From Solobacterium sp. (lineage in GTDB: Bacteria > Bacillota_I > Bacilli_A > Erysipelotrichales > Erysipelotrichaceae), in NCBI GenBank assembly GCA_024696355.1, contig JAILGV010000040.1, positions 1 through 38,850 of the forward strand: a stretch of 38,850 nucleotides of DNA, given 5' to 3'. Shown in pieces: positions 27,466 through 38,610 of this stretch. Every line of letters starts with the position of its first letter. Positions within the stretch are counted from its first letter, which is position 1. Under the pieces are notes generated by a model. It was not told the origin of the DNA. It did no database searches and worked only from the letters and a program-made list of their open reading frames with translations. The position numbers and the translations under genes were made by a program.

Positions 27466-27510
27466 ACAGAACCTCTTTATCAGTAACTAATAATATGATA
27501 CCAAAGCATT

Positions 27511-27544
27511 AAAAAAAAGCAGAGATTTTCATATATCTCCGCTT
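27511..27544 (-). terminator. Terminator of the T-box/vor operon
   Basis: On the minus strand AAGCGGAGAT and ATCTCTGCTT pair (one G-U) around an 8-nt loop, followed by a long T run. Confidence 0.8.
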
Positions 27545-27556
27545 TCTTCTGATGAT

Positions 27557-28096
27557 TTATCCGTTGACGGAATATCCTGTTTCAATCGCCTTCAGGTTGA
27601 TATCAAGCAGATCTGCGTGTCTTGAGGATACCACCTTGCGGAGGGCATCTTCCAGATGATCATGAGATACAACCGGACATTCACGGATCAGTTTTCCTGT
27701 CATTACCATGTTGGCAAGACCCGGAGCGCCGAGTTCCTGGGCAATCTTCGTAGCCGGCAGATAATAAACAGTCACATCATCACGCTTTACTTTTCTTTCA
27801 ATCAGCGTGGATTCCACAAAGATCACACCGCCCGGCACAACCGTATTCTCAAATTTTTCCAGTGAAGGAAGATTCATGGCAATGAGAATATCCGGGTTTG
27901 TAATAATCGGTGAGCCGATCGGCTCGTCACTGATCGTAACGCTGCAGTTTGCCGTGCCGCCACGCATTTCAGGTCCGTAGGAAGGAAGCCAGCTCAGCTG
28001 CTTTTCCTCCATCAGCGCCTTGTACGCAAGGAACTTGCCGGCAAACAGAACACCCTGTCCGCCGAATCCGGCAATCAGTATCTGTGTCACTGCCAT
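27557..28096 (-). CDS. vorC: 2-oxoacid:ferredoxin oxidoreductase, gamma subunit
   Basis: This 179-residue subunit has the family start [16 protein letters not shown], then [19 protein letters not shown] and a Rossmann-like body. It forms the domain that binds coenzyme A with the alpha subunit in VOR/KOR-type enzymes. AGGGAGG precedes the ATG, 2 bp after the beta stop. Last gene before the terminator. Confidence 0.92.
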
Positions 28097-28098
28097 AT

Positions 28099-28845
28099 TC
28101 AGTCCTCCCTGCTCCTGTCTTTATAGACACCGAGCGGATAATAAGGGATCATGCTGTTTTCAACAAATTCAAGAGCTTTCTGCGGTGTCATGCCCCAGTT
28201 GGTAGGACAAGAGGACACAACCTCAACGAGTGAGAAGCCTTTCTTCTCAATCTGATTCCGGAACGCCTTCTCGATTGTTTTCTTTGCCTCACGGACGTTT
28301 CTGACATTGTTGACGGCAACACGGGCAATAAATTCCGGTCCGTCCAGAGAGGAAAGAAGCTCACTGACTCTGATCGGATAGCCTGCCGTCAGGACATCTC
28401 TTCCGTAAGGGGAAGTCTGCGTTACCTGTCCGGGAAGTGATGTCGGAGCCATCTGGCCGCCTGTCATGCCGTAAATCGCATTATTCACGAAAATGATCGT
28501 AATGTTTTCATTTCTCGTTGCTGCATGGACGATCTCCGCCATACCGATGGATGCCAGGTCACCGTCTCCCTGATAGGCAAATACAACGCTGTCGGGAAGT
28601 GAACGCTTGATGCCGGTCGCCACTGCCGGAGCTCGTCCGTGCGCAGCTTCAACCATGTCGCATCTGAAGTAATTGTAGGCCATAACCGCACAGCCTACGG
28701 GAGCCACACCGATGGTATCGCCTTCAACGCCGAGCGTGTCGATTGCTTCGGCGACAAGCCTGTGAATAATACCGTGTGTGCAGCCGGGGCAGTAATGAAG
28801 TTCCGCATCCGTCAGTGCATGCGGCTTTTCAAATACAACTGTCAT
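28099..28845 (-). CDS. vorA: 2-oxoacid:ferredoxin oxidoreductase, TPP-binding beta subunit
   Basis: A 248-residue subunit with YCPGCTHGIIHRL at the start, the TPP motif GDGDLASIGMAEIVHAA..NNAIYGMTGGQM, and VGCAVM. It holds thiamine pyrophosphate and forms the carbanion or enamine intermediate. The start overlaps the alpha stop (TAATG) and AAGGAGGTG lies inside the alpha end. Confidence 0.93.
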   Translation of the reverse strand: MTVVFEKPHALTDAELHYCPGCTHGIIHRLVAEAIDTLGVEGDTIGVAPVGCAVMAYNYFRCDMVEAAHGRAPAVATGIKRSLPDSVVFAYQGDGDLASIGMAEIVHAATRNENITIIFVNNAIYGMTGGQMAPTSLPGQVTQTSPYGRDVLTAGYPIRVSELLSSLDGPEFIARVAVNNVRNVREAKKTIEKAFRNQIEKKGFSLVEVVSSCPTNWGMTPQKALEFVENSMIPYYPLGVYKDRSRED

Positions 28846-29906
28846 TACTCAGCACCTCCTTCCAGCTTTTCAACAAGTTCCGTAACTTCCTGCGGTGACG
28901 GGATAATTCCTCCCGAACGCTGGCAGAGATATACCGGACGGATGCATTCTTCCGCAAGCTTCACATCCTCAATCATCTGGCCCATGGAAAGCTCAACGGA
29001 GACAAATGCCTTTACATGGTCAGCAGCCTCGCGGATGACCTTCTTCGGGAACGGCCATACCGTAATCGGGCGGATCATTCCTGCCCTGATACCCTTCTTT
29101 CTCAGCGCCGTAACGGCATTTCTGGATACACGGGCAGCGATTCCGAAAGCCACGATGCAGTAGTCCGCATCATCCATCATATAGCTTTCATAGCGCACTT
29201 CATGCTCTTCAATGTATTTGTAGCGCTCAAAGCGGTCATTATTGGTCTTTTCCAGAATTTCCGGAACCAGATACAGTGAATTGACGACATTGTGCTCACG
29301 TGCCATTTTTGTGCCTGTGACTGCCCACGGCTTTTCAACCACATTGACATGTTCCTCGGGAAGAACAACCGGCTCCATGGTCTGTCCGAGCGTGCCGTCC
29401 GCCAGGATCATGGCAGGCATGCGGTATTTGTCGCCCAGATCGAACGCAAGCGCAGTCAGGTCAGCCATTTCCTGAACGGATGACGGTGTCAGAACAATCA
29501 GATGATAGTCGCCGTGTCCGCCGCCCTTTGTTGCCTGGAAATAGTCACTCTGCGAAGGCTGGATGCCGCCGAGTCCGGGGCCGCCTCTCTGAACATTGAT
29601 GATCAGCGCCGGAAGATCAGCGCCGGCAATATAGGAAATACCTTCCTGCTTCAGGGAAATTCCCGGAGAGGAGGAAGATGTCATGACACGCTTTCCTGTC
29701 GAAGCAACACCGTAAACCATATTGATTGCGGCAATTTCCGACTCTGCCTGCAGGAATACACCTCCCATTTTCGGCAGACGCTTCGCCATGTAGGCAGTCA
29801 GTTCTGTCTGCGGTGTGATCGGATAACCGAAGTAATGCCTGCAGCCTGCTCTCAGGGCAGCTTCAGCGATTGCCTCGTTCCCCTTCATAAGTACTTTTTC
29901 AGCCAT
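28845..29906 (-). CDS. vorB: 2-oxoacid:ferredoxin oxidoreductase, alpha subunit (VorB type)
   Basis: A 353-residue subunit with GNEAIAEAALRAGCRHYFGYPITPQTE, VMTSSSSPGISLKQEG and RGGPGLGG, as in 3-methyl-2-oxobutanoate dehydrogenase subunit VorB. With the beta, gamma and ferredoxin subunits it interconverts branched-chain 2-oxoacids and acyl-CoA plus CO2, with ferredoxin. Specificity between VOR and KOR/IOR types cannot be settled from motifs; linkage to ilvE favours branched chains. Confidence 0.9.
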   Translation of the reverse strand: MAEKVLMKGNEAIAEAALRAGCRHYFGYPITPQTELTAYMAKRLPKMGGVFLQAESEIAAINMVYGVASTGKRVMTSSSSPGISLKQEGISYIAGADLPALIINVQRGGPGLGGIQPSQSDYFQATKGGGHGDYHLIVLTPSSVQEMADLTALAFDLGDKYRMPAMILADGTLGQTMEPVVLPEEHVNVVEKPWAVTGTKMAREHNVVNSLYLVPEILEKTNNDRFERYKYIEEHEVRYESYMMDDADYCIVAFGIAARVSRNAVTALRKKGIRAGMIRPITVWPFPKKVIREAADHVKAFVSVELSMGQMIEDVKLAEECIRPVYLCQRSGGIIPSPQEVTELVEKLEGGAE

Positions 29907-29915
29907 GACTTCACC

Positions 29916-30122
29916 TTACCTTTCCACCGTGATCACACAGTCGGGACACATAATTGCACAGCTTGCGCATCCGATGCATGCCTCCTGATCGGTAATGACC
30001 GCAGGAGAGTGTCCTTTTTTGTTGATCCTGTCAGCTGCGATTACCAGAATATGCTTCGGGCATACACTGACGCAGAGTCCGCAGCCCTTGCAGATATCGG
30101 TATTGAAAGTAACCTTTGCCAT
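29916..30122 (-). CDS. vorD: Ferredoxin-like delta subunit with two 4Fe-4S clusters
   Basis: A 68-residue protein, MAKVTFNTDICKGCGLC, with two CxxCxxCxxxCP motifs (CKGCGLCVSVCP and CIGCASCAIMCP). It is the electron carrier subunit of the oxidoreductase. Start at 30122 after GAGGAG; an ATG at 30146 overlaps the ATPase gene end. The alpha gene follows after 9 bp. Confidence 0.9.
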   Translation of the reverse strand: MAKVTFNTDICKGCGLCVSVCPKHILVIAADRINKKGHSPAVITDQEACIGCASCAIMCPDCVITVER

Positions 30123-30142
30123 AATATCCGTTCTCCTCAGTC

Positions 30143-30814
30143 TCATTCATCTGTGATCTTCTTCTGCAGTTTCAGCGGAAACAGATCCGGAATGAGGTCC
30201 TTTAAATCTTCGTAAAGCGTATCATGCACTGCCGTCATGACAACAGGCAGTCCGGAAAGCTCAGACAGCTTCTGAACATGCACCTGTGAATCAAGCACGG
30301 TCCCTGCCGTTGTTTCCGGGCCGAGATTGGTATTGTTGATGATTCCCGTAAAATGCATGCCGCATGCATATTCAATTTCGTGCAGAACTTCCATGGCATC
30401 TTCCGCATTCTGCGTCAGAGGCCTGCAGAAATTTGCTACAAAGAACATGTCATAGTTATTTTCTTCCAGAATATAAGGCGTAAACCTTCCCAGTGCCAGA
30501 GCGCCTCTGTCATCTCCTCCGATATCCAGAACCGCATACCTGGATTTGTTCTGCACCAGTGAATATGCACTTGAAGGCAGTGCCGGAAGATCAACATTGC
30601 TGTTGGCATACGGAAGCGCAATCACATCGATTCCCCTCTTCCGCATTTCTTCCTCGCTGTCCTTCATGCGGAAGTACGGATTGACAATATCCAGATCCGC
30701 GATGGCAACCGGAAGCCCCAGTTCCCTGAGATACAGTGCATAATTTACTGCGATATTGGTCTTGCCGCTGCCGTAGTGTCCCATCAGCAGCGACAGACGT
30801 TTCGGTTTCAGCAT
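30143..30814 (-). CDS. P-loop (SIMIBI/MinD-like) ATPase of the vor operon, unknown role
   Basis: A 223-residue protein with Walker A GHYGSGKTN near the start, a switch-like ADLDIVNPYFR, Walker B-like AVLDIGGDDRG, and a base-recognition-like segment GIINNTNLG. It resembles ParA/MinD/CobQ-type NTPases but lacks the deviant KGGxGKT lysine. No Cys pair or membrane target sequence is seen. It overlaps ilvE by 7 bp and is followed by the ferredoxin subunit, so it is an integral part of the operon. Possible roles (Fe-S loading, ATP-driven electron transfer) are guesses. Confidence 0.75.
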   Translation of the reverse strand: MLKPKRLSLLMGHYGSGKTNIAVNYALYLRELGLPVAIADLDIVNPYFRMKDSEEEMRKRGIDVIALPYANSNVDLPALPSSAYSLVQNKSRYAVLDIGGDDRGALALGRFTPYILEENNYDMFFVANFCRPLTQNAEDAMEVLHEIEYACGMHFTGIINNTNLGPETTAGTVLDSQVHVQKLSELSGLPVVMTAVHDTLYEDLKDLIPDLFPLKLQKKITDE

Positions 30815-31881
30815 ACTTTATGGATCCAGTTTTTCGTATCCTCGATATGACCCCACTGAATGCCTGTCAGTGTGTCATAAAGCTTCTGTGTCACTTCACC
30901 GATCCTGCCGTCACCGATCGTGTATTCTTCACCCTGATAGCTGAGCCAGCCTACCGGTGAAACAACCGCTGCGGTACCGGTTCCCCAGAACTCTTCCAGT
31001 GTTCCGTTTTTGGCAGCTTCAATCACTTCGTCAACGGAAATCAGACGTTCCGTTACCTTGTAGCCCATATCCCTGAGCAGTTCGATGCATGACTTTCTGG
31101 TGATGCCGGGAAGAACTGATCCGGTCAGCGCAGGAGTGATGATCTCCCCGTTGATCTTGAACATGACATTCATGGCACCGACTTCCTCGATGTATTTTCT
31201 TTCAACGCCGTCAAGCCAGAGAACCTGTGTATAGCCGTGCTCGGCTGCCACTTTTCCTGCTCTCAGGGATGCCGCATAGTTGCCGCCGCACTTGGCATAG
31301 CCTGTGCCGCCTCTGACTGCACGGACATCTCTGGATTCAATCGCAATCTTGACCGGATTGATGCCTTCTGCATAATATGCACCGCTCGGTGAAAGAATTA
31401 CGGCAAAAGTCGTATTGTGAACTGCATGCACGCCCAGATTTTCATCATTTCCGAATTCAAACGGACGGATGTACAGGGAGGAACCCTCAGAGTAAGGAAC
31501 CCAGTCTTTTTCCATCTTTACGAGCGTATCAAGAATTTCCATCCACATCTGTGAATCGATTTCCGGCAGACATAAACGTTCGGCACTGTTGTTCATTCTC
31601 TTTCCGTTCTCATCCGGGCGGAACATTACGATCTCACCCTTCACGTTGCGGTATGCCTTCATGCCTTCAAAAATCTCAACGCCGTAATGAAGAACTGTTG
31701 ACGCCGGATGAATCGGCAGATAGCCGAACGGAACAATACGGAGATTGTGCCAGCCTTCCTTTTCATTGTGATCCATCAGGAACATGTGATCGGTAAAGAT
31801 TCTGCCGAACCCGAGCTTTGATTCATCCTGCGGACGCTCCCTGGGTTCTGTTGTTTTTGTAACCTTAATGTCTAAACTCAT
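30808..31881 (-). CDS. ilvE: Branched-chain amino acid aminotransferase
   Basis: A 357-residue fold-type IV PLP enzyme. Features: FGRIFTDHMFLMDH, HYGVEIFEGMKAYR, RPFEFG, the PLP lysine in GGTGYAKCGGNYAASL, WLDGVERKYIEEVGAMNVMF, and EFWGTGTAAVVSPVG. It interconverts Val, Leu, Ile with their 2-oxoacids using glutamate. AGGAGGAG sets the start at 31881. It sits 28 bp after the acyl-CoA synthetase fusion gene in the T-box operon. Confidence 0.95.
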   Translation of the reverse strand: MSLDIKVTKTTEPRERPQDESKLGFGRIFTDHMFLMDHNEKEGWHNLRIVPFGYLPIHPASTVLHYGVEIFEGMKAYRNVKGEIVMFRPDENGKRMNNSAERLCLPEIDSQMWMEILDTLVKMEKDWVPYSEGSSLYIRPFEFGNDENLGVHAVHNTTFAVILSPSGAYYAEGINPVKIAIESRDVRAVRGGTGYAKCGGNYAASLRAGKVAAEHGYTQVLWLDGVERKYIEEVGAMNVMFKINGEIITPALTGSVLPGITRKSCIELLRDMGYKVTERLISVDEVIEAAKNGTLEEFWGTGTAAVVSPVGWLSYQGEEYTIGDGRIGEVTQKLYDTLTGIQWGHIEDTKNWIHKVC

Positions 31882-31909
31882 GAGATTCTCCTCCTGCTTT
31901 TTCCTGTAG

Positions 31910-34183
31910 TTACAGCTGTGATCTGATAATCTTTCCGTTGATTGTCTTCGGCAGTTCATCACAGAAGACAACTTTGCGGGGATACTTGTAAGGTGCGGTA
32001 TGCTGCTTGACGTAGTTCTGAATTTCCTTCTTGAGCTCTTCGGTCGGCTCCTTGTCCTTCATCAGCACAACGGAAGCCTTAACGATCTGTCCTCTGACTT
32101 CGTCCGGTTCCGGAGAAACCGCACAGTCAAGGACATACGGCAGTTCAAGAATTACGGATTCGATCTCGAACGGCCCGATACGGTAGCCGGAAGACTTGAT
32201 GATATCGTCTCCGCGTCCGACATACCAGTAGTAGTCATCCTCATCACGCCATGCAATATCACCGGTGTGATAGAAGCCGTCATGAACCTGCTCACGTGTT
32301 TTTTCTGTGTCTCTGTAGTATTCCCGGAACAGTCCTGTCGGCGAACCGTCAGCAAGACTGATGCAGATTTCTCCCGGTTCACCGTCAGCGACAGGCTTGC
32401 CGTCCCTGCTCAGCAGTGAAATCTGATACTGCGGCGATGCCTTGCCCATGGAACCGAGCTTGACCGGATTGCCGCCGAAATTGGCGATAACCAGCGTCGT
32501 TTCCGTCTGACCGAATCCCTCCATGACTTCCAGACCGGTTGCCTTCCTGAAAAGTCTTGCAACTTCCGGATTCAGCGCCTCACCGGCTGTTGTCATATGC
32601 TTGACCGATGAGAAGTCATATTTGGAAATATCTTCGCGGACCATCATTCTCAGCATGGTCGGCGGTGCACAGAATGTCGTAATGCCGTACTGCTTGAACA
32701 GCGGCAGGATATCCGATGCATGGAATCTGTCGAAGTCATATACGAATACGGCGCCTTCGCACATCCACTGTCCGTATAATTTGCCCCAGAGGGATTTTCC
32801 CCATCCGGTGTCGGATATCGTAAAGTGCAGTCCGTCAGGTTCGCATCTGTGCCAGTAGCGCGCTGTCATAAAGTGACCGAGCGCATATGTATGCTTGTGT
32901 TCAACCATTTTCGGGTTGCCCGTTGTACCGCTTGAGAAGAACATCAGGGCCGGTTCCTCACCTGCCGGGGTATCTTCCGATCTTGCGAATACGGAAGAAT
33001 ACATTTTGTATTCACTGTTGAAGTCACGCCAGCCTTCCTTCGGCTCTCCTACGATCATTTTCAGCTTTACGCTCGGACATTTGGCAATTGCCGCATCGGC
33101 AATATCAGCCACGTCACCGTCCGAAGTGCAGATGATCGCGGAAACTCCCGCAGAATCAAATCTGTAGCAGAAATCATGCTCGCGCAGCTGATAGGTTGCC
33201 GGAATTGCAATCGCTCCCAGCTTGTGCAGGCCGACCATCGCAAACCAGAACTGATAGTGGCGCTTCAGTACAAGCATGACTTTGTCGCCCTTTTTGATGC
33301 CCAGTGACTTGAAGTAGTTTGCGCAGCGGCTGGACTCTTTCTTAATGTCCTTGAATGTATACCGGCGTTCCGTCTTGTTCACATCAAGGTGAATCATTGC
33401 CAGCTTGTCCGGATATTTGTCTGCGATTTTGTCAACGACGTCAAATCCGAAATTGAATCTGTCTGTATTTTTGAAATTGATTTCCTTCGGTGAACCGTTG
33501 GGATTTTCGGTGACTTCAACAAATTCATCGACAAGAAGTCTGGAATCAGCGAACTTCTCGGCAGATACATCCTCGTACTCGACTTCCTCATGCTTTGCTT
33601 CGCCGGGAAGAATAATTGCAAGGAATACGCAGTCTTTTCCGCCTACGGCAATCATGCCGTGCGGTGAGGAACTGTTGTAGAGAATACTGTCGCCCTTATG
33701 CAGGATTTCCTGATTGTCGCCGATCTGAATTTTCAGGGATCCTGATACAACATAGTCGAATTCCTGCCCGTCATGCGTCGTCGTATGAATCGGCGCATTC
33801 TGAAGTTCATCCGAATATTCGTATCTTACCCAGTACGGCTCGGCAATCTTGTTGCGGAAACGCGGGGCAAGATTCTTGATCAGGATGCCTTCTTCCTTGG
33901 CAGTTTCCAGACCTTCGTCTTTTCTTGTTACTGTGTATGAACTGAGTCTTGCTGTAGAGTTGCCTTCAAGAAGTTCCGAAAAATCAACTCCGAAGGTTAA
34001 TGCACATTTGTGGATAAAACTGAACGGCAGGTCCGCCTCACCGCTTTCATATCTCCGGTAATCCTCGACAGTCACTTCAGTGGAGCGCGCTACTTCCTCC
34101 TCCGACATACCCAGTACGTCACGGATTTCCCGGACACGTGAAGCAATTTCTTTCAGTCTGGTCCTCGTGTTCTGTGTGCTCAT
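31910..34183 (-). CDS. XRE-HTH / cupin / acyl-CoA synthetase fusion protein
   Basis: A 757-residue protein with three parts in one frame. Residues 8-73 form an XRE-type helix-turn-helix (LGMSEEEVARSTEVTVEDYRR). Residues about 111-195 form a cupin (HTTTHDGQEFDYVVSG, then HKGDSILYNSSSPHG). Residues about 240-757 form an AMP-forming acyl-CoA synthetase of the medium-chain (ACSM) type: SSGTTGNPK (417-425), GFGQTETT, YHTGD, GRGDDIIKSSGYRIGP and catalytic Lys751 in TINGKI. XRE-cupin regulators and acyl-CoA synthetases are often neighbours; here they are one chain. AGGAGGG at normal spacing sets the start. First gene after the T-box. The acyl substrate is inferred to be short or branched chain. Confidence 0.92.
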   Translation of the reverse strand: MSTQNTRTRLKEIASRVREIRDVLGMSEEEVARSTEVTVEDYRRYESGEADLPFSFIHKCALTFGVDFSELLEGNSTARLSSYTVTRKDEGLETAKEEGILIKNLAPRFRNKIAEPYWVRYEYSDELQNAPIHTTTHDGQEFDYVVSGSLKIQIGDNQEILHKGDSILYNSSSPHGMIAVGGKDCVFLAIILPGEAKHEEVEYEDVSAEKFADSRLLVDEFVEVTENPNGSPKEINFKNTDRFNFGFDVVDKIADKYPDKLAMIHLDVNKTERRYTFKDIKKESSRCANYFKSLGIKKGDKVMLVLKRHYQFWFAMVGLHKLGAIAIPATYQLREHDFCYRFDSAGVSAIICTSDGDVADIADAAIAKCPSVKLKMIVGEPKEGWRDFNSEYKMYSSVFARSEDTPAGEEPALMFFSSGTTGNPKMVEHKHTYALGHFMTARYWHRCEPDGLHFTISDTGWGKSLWGKLYGQWMCEGAVFVYDFDRFHASDILPLFKQYGITTFCAPPTMLRMMVREDISKYDFSSVKHMTTAGEALNPEVARLFRKATGLEVMEGFGQTETTLVIANFGGNPVKLGSMGKASPQYQISLLSRDGKPVADGEPGEICISLADGSPTGLFREYYRDTEKTREQVHDGFYHTGDIAWRDEDDYYWYVGRGDDIIKSSGYRIGPFEIESVILELPYVLDCAVSPEPDEVRGQIVKASVVLMKDKEPTEELKKEIQNYVKQHTAPYKYPRKVVFCDELPKTINGKIIRSQL

Positions 34184-34206
34184 GGCCACCCTCCTGCTGA
34201 GACGAA

Positions 34207-34242
34207 GAAAGGCTCGTCTCAAATAATTGTTTGAGACGAGCC
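34207..34242 (-). terminator. Regulated terminator of the T-box leader
   Basis: GGCTCGTCTCAAA and TTTGAGACGAGCC (34211-34242) form a 13-bp stem with a six-base loop, followed by TTTCTT on the minus strand. It competes with the antiterminator containing the T-box sequence. Confidence 0.88.
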
Positions 34243-34492
34243 CGAATTCTGCATCGGTATCCCGCGGTACCACTCAAATTGCATTTCTTTATGAAATGCC
34301 CCTCATCAGCGCCATCACGCCTTTTGCTTTTACGCAGCAACTACGTGCAGTATTACTTGAGACCGTTCACACTGCCGGCTCGGAAGTGATAGGTTCAGAA
34401 ACGTTCACTGCCGGAATTTCACCATCCATCCGGATCTCTGCATCAGCTTCGTGTTTCGCCCGTCTTCGTCTGTGCCTTTCACTATTTGATTT
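34207..34492 (-). promoter_or_regulatory. T-box leader, predicted isoleucine (AUC specifier)
   Basis: On the minus strand the leader has a Stem I with distal helix CCGGA/TCCGG and CAGA/TCTG, and a specifier loop whose 3' side is AACCTATCA. It also has a GAAG/CTTC helix below it, and the conserved T-box GAGTGGTACCGCGG (plus 34262-34274). Placing the specifier directly before the last loop purine gives ATC (34388-34390), isoleucine. The TGGT bulge matches a tRNA with discriminator A, as tRNA-Ile has. CTA (Leu) in the same loop is the main alternative. It controls the operon starting at 34183. Confidence 0.88.
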
Positions 34493-34498
34493 GCGTTA

Positions 34499-34527
34499 AT
34501 ACTATCGTTAAAGTCCTGTTCAGTCAA
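34499..34527 (-). promoter_or_regulatory. Promoter of the T-box operon
   Basis: TTGACT (34527-34522), 17-bp spacer, TAGTAT (34504-34499), just after the stop of the TIM-synthetase gene. No terminator for the upstream genes is visible, so readthrough into the leader is possible. Confidence 0.75.
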
Positions 34528-34551: not shown

Positions 34552-37008
34552 TCATTTCAGACCGAGCTCTTCTTCGGACTGTTCCTTCATCTTGTATTTC
34601 AGAATCTTGCCTGCCGCATTCATCGGGAAATCAGGCACAAATTTGAAATAGCGCGGCACCTTGTGGCGTGCCATTCTTTCATATCCGTAATCCTTGAGCT
34701 CCTGCTCTGTTGCGGTCTCATGCTCATGCAGAATGACCCATGCACATGCTTCCTCGCCATAGCGTTCATCCTTTACGCCGACCACCTGAACATCACGGAC
34801 CTTCGGATATGTCAGATAGAATTCTTCAATTTCACGCGGATAGATATTCTCGCCGCCGCGGATAATCATATCCTTCAGTCTGCCGGTCACCTTGTAGTAG
34901 CCGTCTTCCGTCCGGCAGCAGATATCACCGGTATGAAGCCATCCGTCTTCATCAATAACCTGGGCAGTTGCCTCCGGCATTTTGTAATAGCCGCGCATGA
35001 TGTTGTATCCCCTGGCAACAAACTCACCGTTCTGTCCGTCCGGCAGGTCTTCACCTGTCTCCGGATCGATAATCTTGCACTCGACACCGGGGAATGCGGA
35101 ACCGACCGTCTCCACACGGTGATCAAGATCTTCATTGACTTCACCCATCGTGCAGCCCGGGGAAGACTCCGTCTGACCGTATACCGAGATGATTTCCTTC
35201 ATATTCATCTCTGCGGCAGCCTTGCGCATCAGATCCGGCGGACAGTTGCTGCCGGCCATAATGCCGGTACGGATATATGAGAAGTCCGTTTTGCTGAAAT
35301 CAGGATGATTGAACATGGCAATAAACATCGTGGGAACACCGTTGAAGCAGGTAATCTTTTCCTGATTGATGCATGCCAGGGATGACTTCGGTGAAAAATA
35401 CGGAACCGGGGAAAGCGTTCCGCCGTGCGTCATGGTCGAAGTCATGGAAAGGACCATTCCGAAGCAGTGGAACATGGGAACCTGTATCATCATGCGGTCG
35501 GCAGTGGAAAGATCCATGCGGTCGCCGATTGTCTTGCCGTCATTGATAATATTGTTGTGCGTCAGCATAACACCCTTCGGGAAACCCGTCGTGCCGGAAG
35601 TGTACTGCATATTGCACACGTCATCCGGACTTACCAGGCTGGCACGCCTCAGCACTTCCTCATGCGGTACCTTTTCCGCATAATCCGGCATTTCCTCCCA
35701 TGCCAGAGCCCCTTCCATGCGGAAGCCTACGGTGATCACGTTTCTGAGGAACGGGAGCTTTTTCGCATACAGCGGTTTTCCCGGTGTATGTCCCTCCAGT
35801 TCGGGACACAGTTCCTGAATGATCTGTCTGTAGTTTGAGTCTCTGGTATATTCAATCATGACCAGTGTATGCGTATCGGACTGGTTCAGAAGATATTCAA
35901 CCTCATGAACCTTATATGCCGTGTTGACTGTTACAAGGACTGCCCCGATCTTGGTTGCCGCCCAGAATGTCAGATACCATGCCGGCACATTGGTCGCCCA
36001 GATCGCAACATGCGAGCCCGGCTTTACGCCGATGGCGATAAAAGCCGCAGCCAGTCTGTCAACATCCCGCCTGAACTGCGCATAGGTGCGTGTATAATCC
36101 AGCGTTGTATATTTAAATGCATACTGGTCCGGATAAGTTTCGGCCATCGTATCAAGCACCTGCGAAAAAGTCATATCAACGGTTTCGTACTTTTTCCAGG
36201 GGAACGTCCCGGTATGGGAACGGTTGTAATACAGAGCGTTGGATGTATCACTCTCCCTGTCGATCCTGTTGATAAAGCTCTCAAAGTGCGTCAGGACAAT
36301 ATCGGGATCCTGGATCTCATCATTCCAGTCCACTGCAATGCATCCTTCATAATGAAGAGAGCGCATGCCGCTGACAAACTTGTCAATCGGAAGAACCCCT
36401 TCACCTGCCAGAACATTCACACCGTCCCTGCAGTCACCGAGCCTGACATAACGGATATATGCACCGAGTGTCTTGATCGTTGTCTCAAGGCTTTCCCCTG
36501 CCTGAAAATATGTGCCTCTGGTATTCCAGGAAACACCTACGGCAGTGGATGAGAAGCAGTTGATCAGTTCGAGACAGCGCCTGCCCGAGCAGAGAGCCCC
36601 GACTGTTTCAAACAGTATTTCCACGTCCGTGTCCTCGGCTCTTCTGACAGCCGCCTGCATTTTTCTGCGGAATCCCTCAAGATCATCACAGCTTTCAACC
36701 GTAAAGATTACACGCTGGATCCCGCTCGCAGCCGCCATGTCGACATATCTCTGCAGATAATCCGCAGCTGCGGCGTCACTGTCTGCACTCAGCGGGCAGA
36801 ACAGAGCTGTCAGCTCAAGCGCTCTGTTTCTCAGCTTGCGCTTGGCATCGGAAAGATTCTCCATGCGCAGCACACTGTCCCTGTGCTGTTTTCTTTCGGA
36901 AAAAGCATCATAAATTTCAAAGCCGTGATATCCGTAATCACGTGCCATGTTGCATACAGAAATGAACGAAGGCCGGCTCACATCCCGGGTTGAAAATACG
37001 TACCGCAT
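34552..37008 (-). CDS. TIM-barrel (sugar isomerase/AP-endonuclease 2-like) / acyl-CoA synthetase fusion
   Basis: An 818-residue fusion. Residues 1 to about 262 look like an AP_endonuc_2-type TIM barrel: ARDYGYHGFEIYDAF, ILFETVG, IRYVRLGDCRDG, and GVLPIDKFVSGMRSLHYEGCIAVDW. Residues from about 285 form an AMP-forming acyl-CoA synthetase of the fatty-acyl type: TSGTTGFPKGV, YGQTESSPG, GWLHTGD, GRLKDMIIRGGENIYPREIE, and catalytic Lys801 in AAGKI. The barrel lacks some usual metal ligands (the HxKD stretch reads VRLGD), so its activity is uncertain. The ATG lies 2 bp past the stop of the upstream isopropylmalate synthase-like gene. Its terminal genes run into the T-box promoter. Confidence 0.88.
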   Translation of the reverse strand: MRYVFSTRDVSRPSFISVCNMARDYGYHGFEIYDAFSERKQHRDSVLRMENLSDAKRKLRNRALELTALFCPLSADSDAAAADYLQRYVDMAAASGIQRVIFTVESCDDLEGFRRKMQAAVRRAEDTDVEILFETVGALCSGRRCLELINCFSSTAVGVSWNTRGTYFQAGESLETTIKTLGAYIRYVRLGDCRDGVNVLAGEGVLPIDKFVSGMRSLHYEGCIAVDWNDEIQDPDIVLTHFESFINRIDRESDTSNALYYNRSHTGTFPWKKYETVDMTFSQVLDTMAETYPDQYAFKYTTLDYTRTYAQFRRDVDRLAAAFIAIGVKPGSHVAIWATNVPAWYLTFWAATKIGAVLVTVNTAYKVHEVEYLLNQSDTHTLVMIEYTRDSNYRQIIQELCPELEGHTPGKPLYAKKLPFLRNVITVGFRMEGALAWEEMPDYAEKVPHEEVLRRASLVSPDDVCNMQYTSGTTGFPKGVMLTHNNIINDGKTIGDRMDLSTADRMMIQVPMFHCFGMVLSMTSTMTHGGTLSPVPYFSPKSSLACINQEKITCFNGVPTMFIAMFNHPDFSKTDFSYIRTGIMAGSNCPPDLMRKAAAEMNMKEIISVYGQTESSPGCTMGEVNEDLDHRVETVGSAFPGVECKIIDPETGEDLPDGQNGEFVARGYNIMRGYYKMPEATAQVIDEDGWLHTGDICCRTEDGYYKVTGRLKDMIIRGGENIYPREIEEFYLTYPKVRDVQVVGVKDERYGEEACAWVILHEHETATEQELKDYGYERMARHKVPRYFKFVPDFPMNAAGKILKYKMKEQSEEELGLK

Positions 37009-37010
37009 AC

Positions 37011-38396
37011 TTATTTCCCCTCGTACACAATCTTATTCAGAGCATTGATATATGCGCGGATACTTGCACCGACGATATCCGTCGAAAGTCCGTTTCCCGA
37101 ATACAGCCTGCCGTCTCTTCTCAGACGGACCAGGGATGAACCGAGAGCTTCCTTTCCCTCCGTGACCGACTGGATTTCGAAGTCATCCAGTTCATAATGG
37201 AATCCGACAGCTTCTTCAATCGCCTTGAATGCCGAGTCAATCGGTCCGTCTCCGTAACCGAGTCCGCTCAGAACTTCATCATTGCGCTTCAGACGCACAT
37301 ATGAAACCGAAGTCGCATTATGCGCTGTTGTTGTCGTGAAATAATCAAGATGATACGTGGACGGCACCTGCATTGCCGAGGAAGCAATAATTGCCTCGAG
37401 TTCCTTGGCCTCCACTGACGTCTTCTTCTCAAGCACGCGCTGCAGCGAATCATAGACATGGCCCACATCGACAGATGAAAGCTCATAGCCCAGCCGGGCA
37501 GCCGCAGAAGCGGTATCGGACAGCGTACTGCCGCCGTCAAGCAGAATATCAGATGTTCCCTGTGCGGCATTCATATCTTCCGACACACGGGAAACCTGCT
37601 TCAGAAGTGTATCAATATCCCTGTGAATTCTTGTCTGTTCAAGCGAGCACTCAAGTCCGAGAACGTCTCCCTTAACTCTGACAGCCTCCGCAAACTCACC
37701 CGTCAGAAGCACACTGTCCCCTGTGACAGCGGTCTTCACTCCGTCAGCGCCGGCATTCAGTGCCGCAAGCGCATCAGCCACAGCCAGTCTCAAAGCGTCA
37801 CTTACCTGTACATACACAGGAACGCTGACACTTTTCTTCGCTTTCGCCGCAAGTGCCGCAAACTCTTCCGGCATATAGATTCCGGCTTCATCCGTCAGCG
37901 TTACGGCTGTCGCACCGGCTTCTTCGGCCTTCTTCAGCAGTGCGGCGAGAACATCTTCCTCTGCCCTTGTGGCATCAAGCGCAATGAATTCAACCTCACT
38001 GCACAGAGCAGCTGCCGCTTTGACGAGCTCTTCAATTTTCAAAGCCATTTTATCGGCTTTCAGATGATAGATATATTCCATCTGCACGGTTGATACAGGC
38101 ATTTCGATCTGAAGACATGCCTTCTTTGCATTTTTAATGCATTCCCATGCCGTCTGTACAGATTCCACGGTGGATCCGGCAGGTATGCACAGCATACTGT
38201 GTTCAACAGATTCAGCGATTGTTCTGCAGATCACCTTGTCCTCCGCCGGCTTCTTCACGGGAGCCAGTTCAATGGCATCCGCCCCGAAACCGTCAATACA
38301 CTCGGCAATTGCCTTCTTTTCCCTGAACAGCAAAGCATGGCCGTTTAATTTACCGATATTTTTCAGTGTACCGTCTGCCACAAAGATCTTTCTCAT
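37011..38396 (-). CDS. Isopropylmalate synthase-like protein with LeuA regulatory domain, catalytic site lost
   Basis: A 462-residue protein. The N-terminal half is an HMGL-type TIM barrel: GAGxxVECT-like ALNAGADGVKTAVTG, and DEAGIYMPEEF. The C-terminal part (from about 330) is a LeuA allosteric/dimerisation domain: SYVRLKRNDEVLSGLGYGDGPIDSAFKAIEEAVG and GLSTDIVGASIRAYINALNK. The catalytic LRDGxQ reads VADGTL (residues 6-11), and the metal-binding HxHND reads VQVSD (196-200). Condensation activity is therefore unlikely. The start at 38396 has AGAAGG at 7 nt. Cotranscribed with the TIM-synthetase fusion. Leucine binding by the intact domain is inferred. Confidence 0.8.
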   Translation of the reverse strand: MRKIFVADGTLKNIGKLNGHALLFREKKAIAECIDGFGADAIELAPVKKPAEDKVICRTIAESVEHSMLCIPAGSTVESVQTAWECIKNAKKACLQIEMPVSTVQMEYIYHLKADKMALKIEELVKAAAALCSEVEFIALDATRAEEDVLAALLKKAEEAGATAVTLTDEAGIYMPEEFAALAAKAKKSVSVPVYVQVSDALRLAVADALAALNAGADGVKTAVTGDSVLLTGEFAEAVRVKGDVLGLECSLEQTRIHRDIDTLLKQVSRVSEDMNAAQGTSDILLDGGSTLSDTASAAARLGYELSSVDVGHVYDSLQRVLEKKTSVEAKELEAIIASSAMQVPSTYHLDYFTTTTAHNATSVSYVRLKRNDEVLSGLGYGDGPIDSAFKAIEEAVGFHYELDDFEIQSVTEGKEALGSSLVRLRRDGRLYSGNGLSTDIVGASIRAYINALNKIVYEGK

Positions 38397-38449
38397 GTGC
38401 ATGCCTTCTTTCCGACGCAAAGCGTTTTCATAATTTACAGATATTGAAA

Positions 38450-38478
38450 GAATTATCATAAAACATGAAAACTGTCAA
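38450..38478 (-). promoter_or_regulatory. Promoter of the isopropylmalate synthase-like operon
   Basis: Minus-strand TTGACA (38478-38473); a -10 could be TAATTC (17-bp spacer) or GATAAT (15-bp spacer). Confidence 0.5.
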
Positions 38479-38521: not shown

Positions 38522-38610
38522 CAGAACGGGCTACTCTTCCCGTTCTGCGCATATACCGTCTGTGCATCATTTTCCGAAATGCCCGATGCCGTCTGTATGA
38601 ACGGTTTTTT
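38522..38610 (+). other. Structured intergenic region, possible small RNA or leader
   Basis: Hairpin CAGAACGGG (38522-38530) / CCCGTTCTG (38539-38547). Then nested stems ACCGT (38555-38559)/ACGGT (38601-38605), GCATC (38564-38568)/GATGC (38585-38589), ATTT/AAAT, ending in a run of six T on the plus strand. It has no open frame and no known RNA class. It lies upstream of both divergent promoters, so neither flanking gene explains it. Confidence 0.35.

Follow-up and report, generated by a model that had tools for sequence, protein, structure and literature searches.

A predicted isoleucine-responsive T-box precedes a candidate operon for isoleucine synthesis from 2-methylbutyrate in Solobacterium sp. 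and recurs in a putative branched-chain-acid regulon of herbivore-gut bacteria

The window analysed here, 38,850 nucleotides of DNA from Solobacterium sp. (GenBank assembly GCA_024696355.1, contig JAILGV010000040.1, positions 1-38,850), carries a T-box leader followed by seven genes (Table 1). Family matches confirmed the gene set that a preliminary description had read from the letters of this DNA, namely a fusion gene for an acyl-CoA synthetase (acs1), the aminotransferase gene ilvE, a gene for a P-loop ATPase and genes for four subunits of a 2-oxoacid:ferredoxin oxidoreductase. Because the gaps between the seven genes are only -7 to 28 nt, they likely form one transcription unit. The terminator said to close this unit was recovered as a stable hairpin, which is absent from the list of a simple terminator pattern scan. 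The VorB-type alpha, the beta and gamma subunits and the ferredoxin make up a VOR-type set for which activity on branched-chain 2-oxoacids is predicted; the gamma subunit fell narrowly under the cut-off of TIGR02175 (78.8 against 81.1 bits), and for the ferredoxin subunit the NCBIfam models were under their cut-offs. The P-loop ATPase gene accompanies the ferredoxin (fdx) and vor genes in many loci of relatives.

The leader matches the covariance model RF00230 over its full length (model positions 1-219) with 90.4 bits and an E-value of 1.6e-20, and the specifier column of the Rfam alignment holds AUC (GAAC-cu-AUC-ACUUCC-GAGC), the codon that had been called probable before. It is one of 18 T-boxes that a whole-genome search found in the window's genome, and the rule for reading specifiers was calibrated on the others: the cognate codon stands at, or a few bases from, the expected place before 13 genes, the names of which were assigned by eye from translated starts (tyrS, metG, alaS, leuS, valS, hisS, lysS, trpS, asnB, ileS, pheS, thrS and cysS). 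The terminator hairpin (34243-34210 plus a T-run) has a folding energy of -30 kcal/mol (z -7.6), and none of 200 shuffled sequences was equally stable. A competing antiterminator pairing, which shares the 5′ arm of the terminator, was seen in a shorter fragment, the energy of which is no better than that of shuffles (z -0.4). The terminator and antiterminator are mutually exclusive, and Stem I with the specifier, the T-box core and the antiterminator/terminator pair are all features that the leader has in common with the transcription-attenuating T-box class. By its match to RF00230 the leader is a T-box riboswitch, with a predicted response to uncharged tRNA-Ile. Simple pattern scans of the region gave 10 promoter-like sites against a shuffle mean of 6.5 and nine terminator-like sites against 6.8 in shuffles.

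Table 1. Features of the operon, its leader and the adjoining genes in the window.
Feature	Position	Strand	Basis and remarks
Terminator-like hairpin ending the operon	27500..27555	-	-20.3 kcal/mol, z -4.7; 0 of 200 shuffles equally stable
2-oxoacid:ferredoxin oxidoreductase, gamma	27557..28096	-	PF01558, 129 bits
2-oxoacid:ferredoxin oxidoreductase, beta (thiamine pyrophosphate)	28099..28845	-	PF02775; NCBIfam models all below cut-off
2-oxoacid:ferredoxin oxidoreductase, alpha (VorB type)	28845..29906	-	NF005507, 542 bits (cut-off 399)
2x[4Fe-4S] ferredoxin subunit (delta)	29916..30122	-	Fer4, translation
P-loop ATPase, CbiA/ParA type	30143..30814	-	Weak matches to PF01656 and PF10609, under their gathering scores
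ilvE, type II branched-chain aminotransferase	30808..31881	-	TIGR01123, 384.9 bits (cut-off 250)
acs1, XRE helix-turn-helix, cupin and AMP-forming acyl-CoA synthetase fusion, 757 aa	31910..34183	-	HTH_3, Cupin_2, AMP-binding
Intrinsic terminator of the T-box, 5′ arm common to the antiterminator	34210..34243	-	14-pair stem and T-run
T-box leader, specifier AUC (Ile), T-box core GAGUGGUACCGCG	34229..34481	-	RF00230
Promoter-like site 5′ of the leader	34499..34527	-	Consensus only, 9 of 12 matches; weak
TIM-barrel (AP_endonuc_2) and AMP-forming ligase fusion	34552..37008	-	Pfam
leuA-like gene with LeuA_dimer domain, likely start 38396	37011..38459	-	Pfam

Conservation of this arrangement was studied in the best 80 of at least 583 matches in a collection of genome contigs (loci and genomes carry our L and G numbers below). 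The host animal is named for 44 of the 80 loci, and all 44 hosts are herbivores (ruminants, horse, rabbit). A T-box lies 5′ of acs1 in 78 loci, 77 of them recognized in the first scan and one after the start of the gene at L038 had been corrected; the remaining two are L044, where acs1 stands directly behind a gene for a fused TIM barrel and ligase, and L084, which is cut by a contig edge. Counted with the window, 79 of 81 distinct acs1 copies have the leader (80 loci plus the window, with L114 dropped as a duplicate of L091). The specifier is AUC in all 78 readable acs1 leaders, the window included (L050 was read by eye, and L085, cut by a contig edge, was left out). The order T-box, synthetase, ilvE, vor that was to be sought in other genomes thus recurs; the full series acs-ilvE-ATPase-fdx-vor varies in that a second synthetase gene (acs2) is inserted, ilvE comes last, or ends are lost at contig edges. 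What the sequences show directly is the presence of the leader, the identity of its specifier, the composition of the operon and the conservation of all of these.

The closest solved structure to the synthetase domain of Acs1 (residues 217-755) is 3ETC with an E-value of 5.7e-191, the next structure following at 2.7e-99. 3ETC is Macs of Methanosarcina acetivorans, which, in the available text of PMC10455477, prefers 2-methylbutyrate, and the same text assigns pocket roles to a Gly in place of the Acs residue Trp416 and to an alternative Trp259. Both hallmarks are invariant in 80 of 80 Acs1 and 36 of 36 Acs2 proteins, the equivalent of Trp259 being assigned from its place in the alignment. Acs1 differs from Macs in the fused XRE-cupin domain and in its placement with genes of amino acid synthesis. 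We propose that Acs1 is a 2-methylbutyryl-CoA synthetase. The XRE-cupin regulator domain (about residues 1-200) is found in both paralogues; the fusion may be a trigger enzyme.

A T-box core was also detected behind acs1, at the place of acs2, in 37 loci. Forty of 43 distinct acs2 copies have a T-box of their own (the other three are L036, L037 and L109), and a valine codon was read in every one of these 40 leaders (33 GUA, 7 GUC). In the window's genome, acs2 stands alone on another contig (L105; G000:C119:8349-10892), 59% identical to acs1 and behind a T-box read as GUC; because the next gene is on the other strand, no vor genes follow it. In the tree, 36 Acs2 proteins form one split with a support of 1.0, and the codons therefore go with the paralogues; this tree excludes the Acs2 of L068, which did not align and with which there is no monophyly. 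Residue 462 (window numbering) is the only site of the synthetase domain that is fixed to at least 90% in each paralogue and differs between them. It lies in the motif GW(G/A)K, which we take to border the acyl pocket, and is Gly in all 80 Acs1 proteins and in Macs, and Ala in all 36 Acs2 proteins. A bulkier side chain for a smaller acid would fit the assignment of the paralogues to isoleucine and valine.

A third T-box, with the leucine codon CUC in 19 of 19 leaders (that of L056 read by eye), precedes a leuA-like gene and the TIM-barrel/ligase fusion, and 13 of the 80 loci have all three T-boxes. L048, L061 and L104 each gave three Rfam T-box matches, with scores of 65-98 bits. L104 also has a lysine riboswitch close to this cluster (RF00168, 114 bits; L104:644-816). 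In many loci the TIM-ligase gene, with its xylose-isomerase-like barrel, has the leuA-like gene on one side and the acs1 T-box on the other, and we propose its product as the ligase of a leucine (isovalerate) unit. The leuA-like protein has lost both His residues of the HxH motif, a pair which in isopropylmalate synthase presumably binds metal, in 26 of 26 cases including the window (comparison with 3RMJ). An ordinary isopropylmalate synthase is ruled out by this loss; a leucine sensor is possible. Geobacter leuA behind a Leu T-box is a comparable case in the available text of PMC2700814, the leuA-like gene likewise being similar to LeuA, with a LeuA_dimer domain and, in 19 relatives, a Leu T-box, but Geobacter leuA is ordinary, whereas both metal-binding His residues are missing here. 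Rfam scans and a core scan found no T-box 5′ of the window's leuA-like gene, where there is an inverted repeat (AGAACGGG...CCCGTTCT, window 38523-38546) with no T-box score. The Leu T-box was likewise not found in L039, L040, L041, L050 and L103, all labelled spirochaetes, and it is not readable in L026, which is cut by a contig edge.

For the standard pathway we searched 51 operon-bearing genomes (the window's own plus the genomes behind 50 of the 80 loci) and 14 control genomes. Over the cut-off in the 51 were ilvC in 11, ilvD in 13, threonine dehydratase (TIGR01127) in five, leuB in nine and citramalate synthase in none, with ilvD-like matches under the cut-off in three more; the controls gave 14, 14, 5, 9 and 5. 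Because the models for TIGR01127, leuB and citramalate synthase pass in only 5, 9 and 5 of the 14 controls, they are narrower tests. The window's genome, which is 83% complete, has no ilvA (TIGR01127), ilvC, ilvD, leuB or cimA over the cut-off; ilvC, ilvD and threonine dehydratase were the genes that the preliminary description had asked about. Among genomes with acs2, ilvC is present in 1 of 36 and ilvD in 1 of 36, compared with 10 of 15 and 12 of 15 genomes without it (Fisher p 2e-6 and 3e-8), G169 being counted among the latter because its second match is only a 50% partial one. The sole acs2 genome with ilvC, G191, has four acs and two leuB matches over the cut-off and may be a mixed bin. 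Genomes equipped to make valine by the usual route thus mostly lack the ligase with the Val T-box, yet keep the one with the Ile T-box. Similarly, leuB is over the cut-off in none of 24 genomes with a leuA-like or TIM-ligase gene beside the operon and in 9 of 27 others, in which the leucine unit may sit elsewhere in the genome (p 0.002).

The conserved AUC, the proximity of Acs1 to Macs and the lack of ilvC and ilvD matches in the window's genome support the biosynthetic direction that had been suggested for the operon. From them we infer substrates, direction of flux and regulation in the cell: the Ile T-box very probably controls reductive synthesis of isoleucine from 2-methylbutyrate, as part of a regulon for the assimilation of branched-chain acids. 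Uncharged tRNA-Ile would pair with the AUC specifier and the antiterminator so that the operon is transcribed. Acs1 would then convert 2-methylbutyrate, released by isoleucine-fermenting neighbours, to 2-methylbutyryl-CoA, which the ferredoxin-dependent oxidoreductase would carboxylate to 3-methyl-2-oxopentanoate, and IlvE would aminate this to isoleucine. In relatives, a valine copy of the design would consist of the Val T-box and Acs2 acting on isobutyrate, and a probable leucine copy of the Leu T-box, the degenerate LeuA and the TIM-ligase acting on isovalerate, both sharing IlvE and the oxidoreductase. Because the Val and Leu T-boxes of relatives stand before other units, the window operon is most likely dedicated to the step from 2-methylbutyrate to isoleucine. 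This narrows the list of acids given in the preliminary description; of its other members, propionate leads to a rival route.

On that route Acs1 would form propionyl-CoA, the oxidoreductase would yield 2-oxobutyrate and the normal ilv enzymes would finish isoleucine. We regard this as unlikely, even though TIGR01127 finds nothing over the cut-off in 6 of the 11 genomes with ilvC, which, with citramalate synthase at 0 of 51, may need a source of 2-oxobutyrate. Macs, in the available text of PMC10455477, can form propionyl-AMP, but it is with 2-methylbutyrate that it completes the CoA step. The propionate route moreover cannot operate in a genome that truly lacks ilvC and ilvD, which seems to be the case for the window's, and the pocket residues do not differ between Acs1 proteins from the two classes of genome. 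VOR enzymes can run either way and usually carry a catabolic annotation, which would suit an operon that degrades isoleucine to 2-methylbutyrate and stands behind a T-box by chance. We consider this very improbable: nothing would be gained by inducing such an operon when isoleucine is short, the AMP-forming ligase spends ATP, the three specifiers match three units, and the presence of acs2 goes with the absence of ilvC.

The remaining alternative, to which we give hardly any weight, is that Acs1 provides branched-chain acyl-CoAs to prime membrane lipid synthesis, as MbcS does in Staphylococcus aureus. MbcS (NF047394) is the nearest NCBIfam model to Acs1, and in the available text of PMC10026030 the enzyme serves fatty acid synthesis; it acts on 2-methylbutyrate and isobutyrate, the former being the acid that we propose for Acs1. 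Acs1 does not belong to the MbcS equivalog, reaching 433 bits where the cut-off is 850, and the aminotransferase and oxidoreductase in the unit, together with control by tRNA-Ile, point to amino acids rather than lipids.

Several observations weigh against isoleucine synthesis from 2-methylbutyrate, or against the breadth that we give it. Acs1 being so far below the MbcS cut-off is one of them. The window's T-box is 2.6 bits below the Rfam gathering score (93), which is why a gathering-level scan missed it, and seven of the nine T-boxes at L048, L061 and L104 are also under that score, with two above it. The loci studied were the top 80 by similarity among at least 583 relatives. Where a leader offered several candidate codons, our first codon caller settled on the one for the expected amino acid. 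A codon-blind place rule picked AUC in 73 of 73 acs1 leaders (no pick in 6 of 79), GUA or GUC in 33 of 36 acs2 leaders (no pick in 4 of 40) and CUC in 17 of 19 leaders of the leucine unit; it leaves some leaders without a call and gave a different codon for three acs2 and two leu leaders, having landed at another place in all five. The Rfam alignment of the acs1 leader at L104 contains an insertion of 5 bases and reads UUC as the specifier. Besides residue 462, the N-terminal XRE-cupin part has ten sites at which each paralogue is fixed for its own residue, and 18 further sites of the synthetase domain differ mostly between Acs1 and Acs2, so that site 462 is a candidate cause of specificity. 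The Fisher tests treat related genomes as if they were independent, so that the p-values are indicative, and most genomes are probably incomplete bins. The ilvA search covered TIGR01127 only, which is over the cut-off in just 5 of 14 controls, and five of the 51 operon genomes have ilvA, ilvC and ilvD over the cut-off (G170, G182, G183, G188 and G190).

Among 115 genomes of the window's family, and among 395 of its class, the window's own genome is the only one in which the acs fusion was found. Contamination as the source of the operon was ruled out by a gene on the same contig (17554-18684, read as tgt), which is 81-88% identical to its counterpart in all 23 same-genus genomes searched and 64-68% identical to that in the 16 genomes of the other family. 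The contig therefore belongs to the genus, so the operon was probably acquired. In the spirochaete-labelled genomes G156, G161, G162, G163, G166 and G199 we counted at least one to three T-boxes each; the spirochaete-labelled bins with few T-boxes hold L033, L039, L040, L041, L047 and L103. Most other genomes have 5-12, but G159, G169 and G154 only 2, 2 and 4, all per-genome counts being lower bounds from stricter search filters. The low numbers in spirochaete-labelled genomes suggest that the leaders came with the operon.

A carbon-nitrogen hydrolase gene (PF00795) lies within the cluster in 19 of the 80 loci, directly behind acs1 in 16 of them (for example L040:10280-11071). The nearest NCBIfam models are members of the nitrilase superfamily, all below their cut-offs. 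If the hydrolase were an omega-amidase, it would possibly pull transamination towards the amino acid.

Taking the loci together, we think it rather likely that herbivore-gut bacteria use a regulon with three branches, the Ile, Val and Leu T-boxes turning on the ligases for 2-methylbutyrate, isobutyrate and isovalerate, respectively, with VOR and IlvE common to all. In such a regulon the specifier would label the specificity of the ligase, the Gly/Ala exchange would help to set isoleucine against valine, the catalytically dead LeuA would act as leucine sensor, and the cluster would have spread with its leaders to spirochaetes with few other T-boxes. Reductive carboxylation of branched-chain acids by rumen bacteria and methanogens is said to go back to Robinson and Allison (1969), Allison and Peel (1971) and Allison et al. 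(1962, 1966). The reactions that we propose and the habitat are the same; what the window operon would add is a dedicated gene cluster and RNA control specific to an amino acid. As far as the available text of PMC2812497 and PMC7356843 goes, rumen anaerobes make isoleucine from 2-methylbutyrate, valine from isobutyrate and leucine from isovalerate. The literature searched, in the parts available, gave no gene cluster with its regulation for this rumen route. It likewise gave no T-box with an acyl-CoA synthetase and VOR gene set, in line with the preliminary description, which knew of none; subscription reviews of T-box regulons lie outside that literature and may hold an earlier listing. The biosynthetic reading of the window operon is well supported by the comparisons above, and the new element would be the wider regulon for three amino acids.

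Synthesis of isoleucine, valine and leucine from branched-chain volatile acids in the rumen has been known since the 1960s, and candidate genes for it can now be named. A codon in an RNA leader suggests the substrate of each ligase paralogue, and a T-box gives the probable biosynthetic direction of a reversible enzyme from the DNA itself. The family of loci may serve as a marker for users of branched-chain acids in herbivore guts, and it would make the pathway testable gene by gene.

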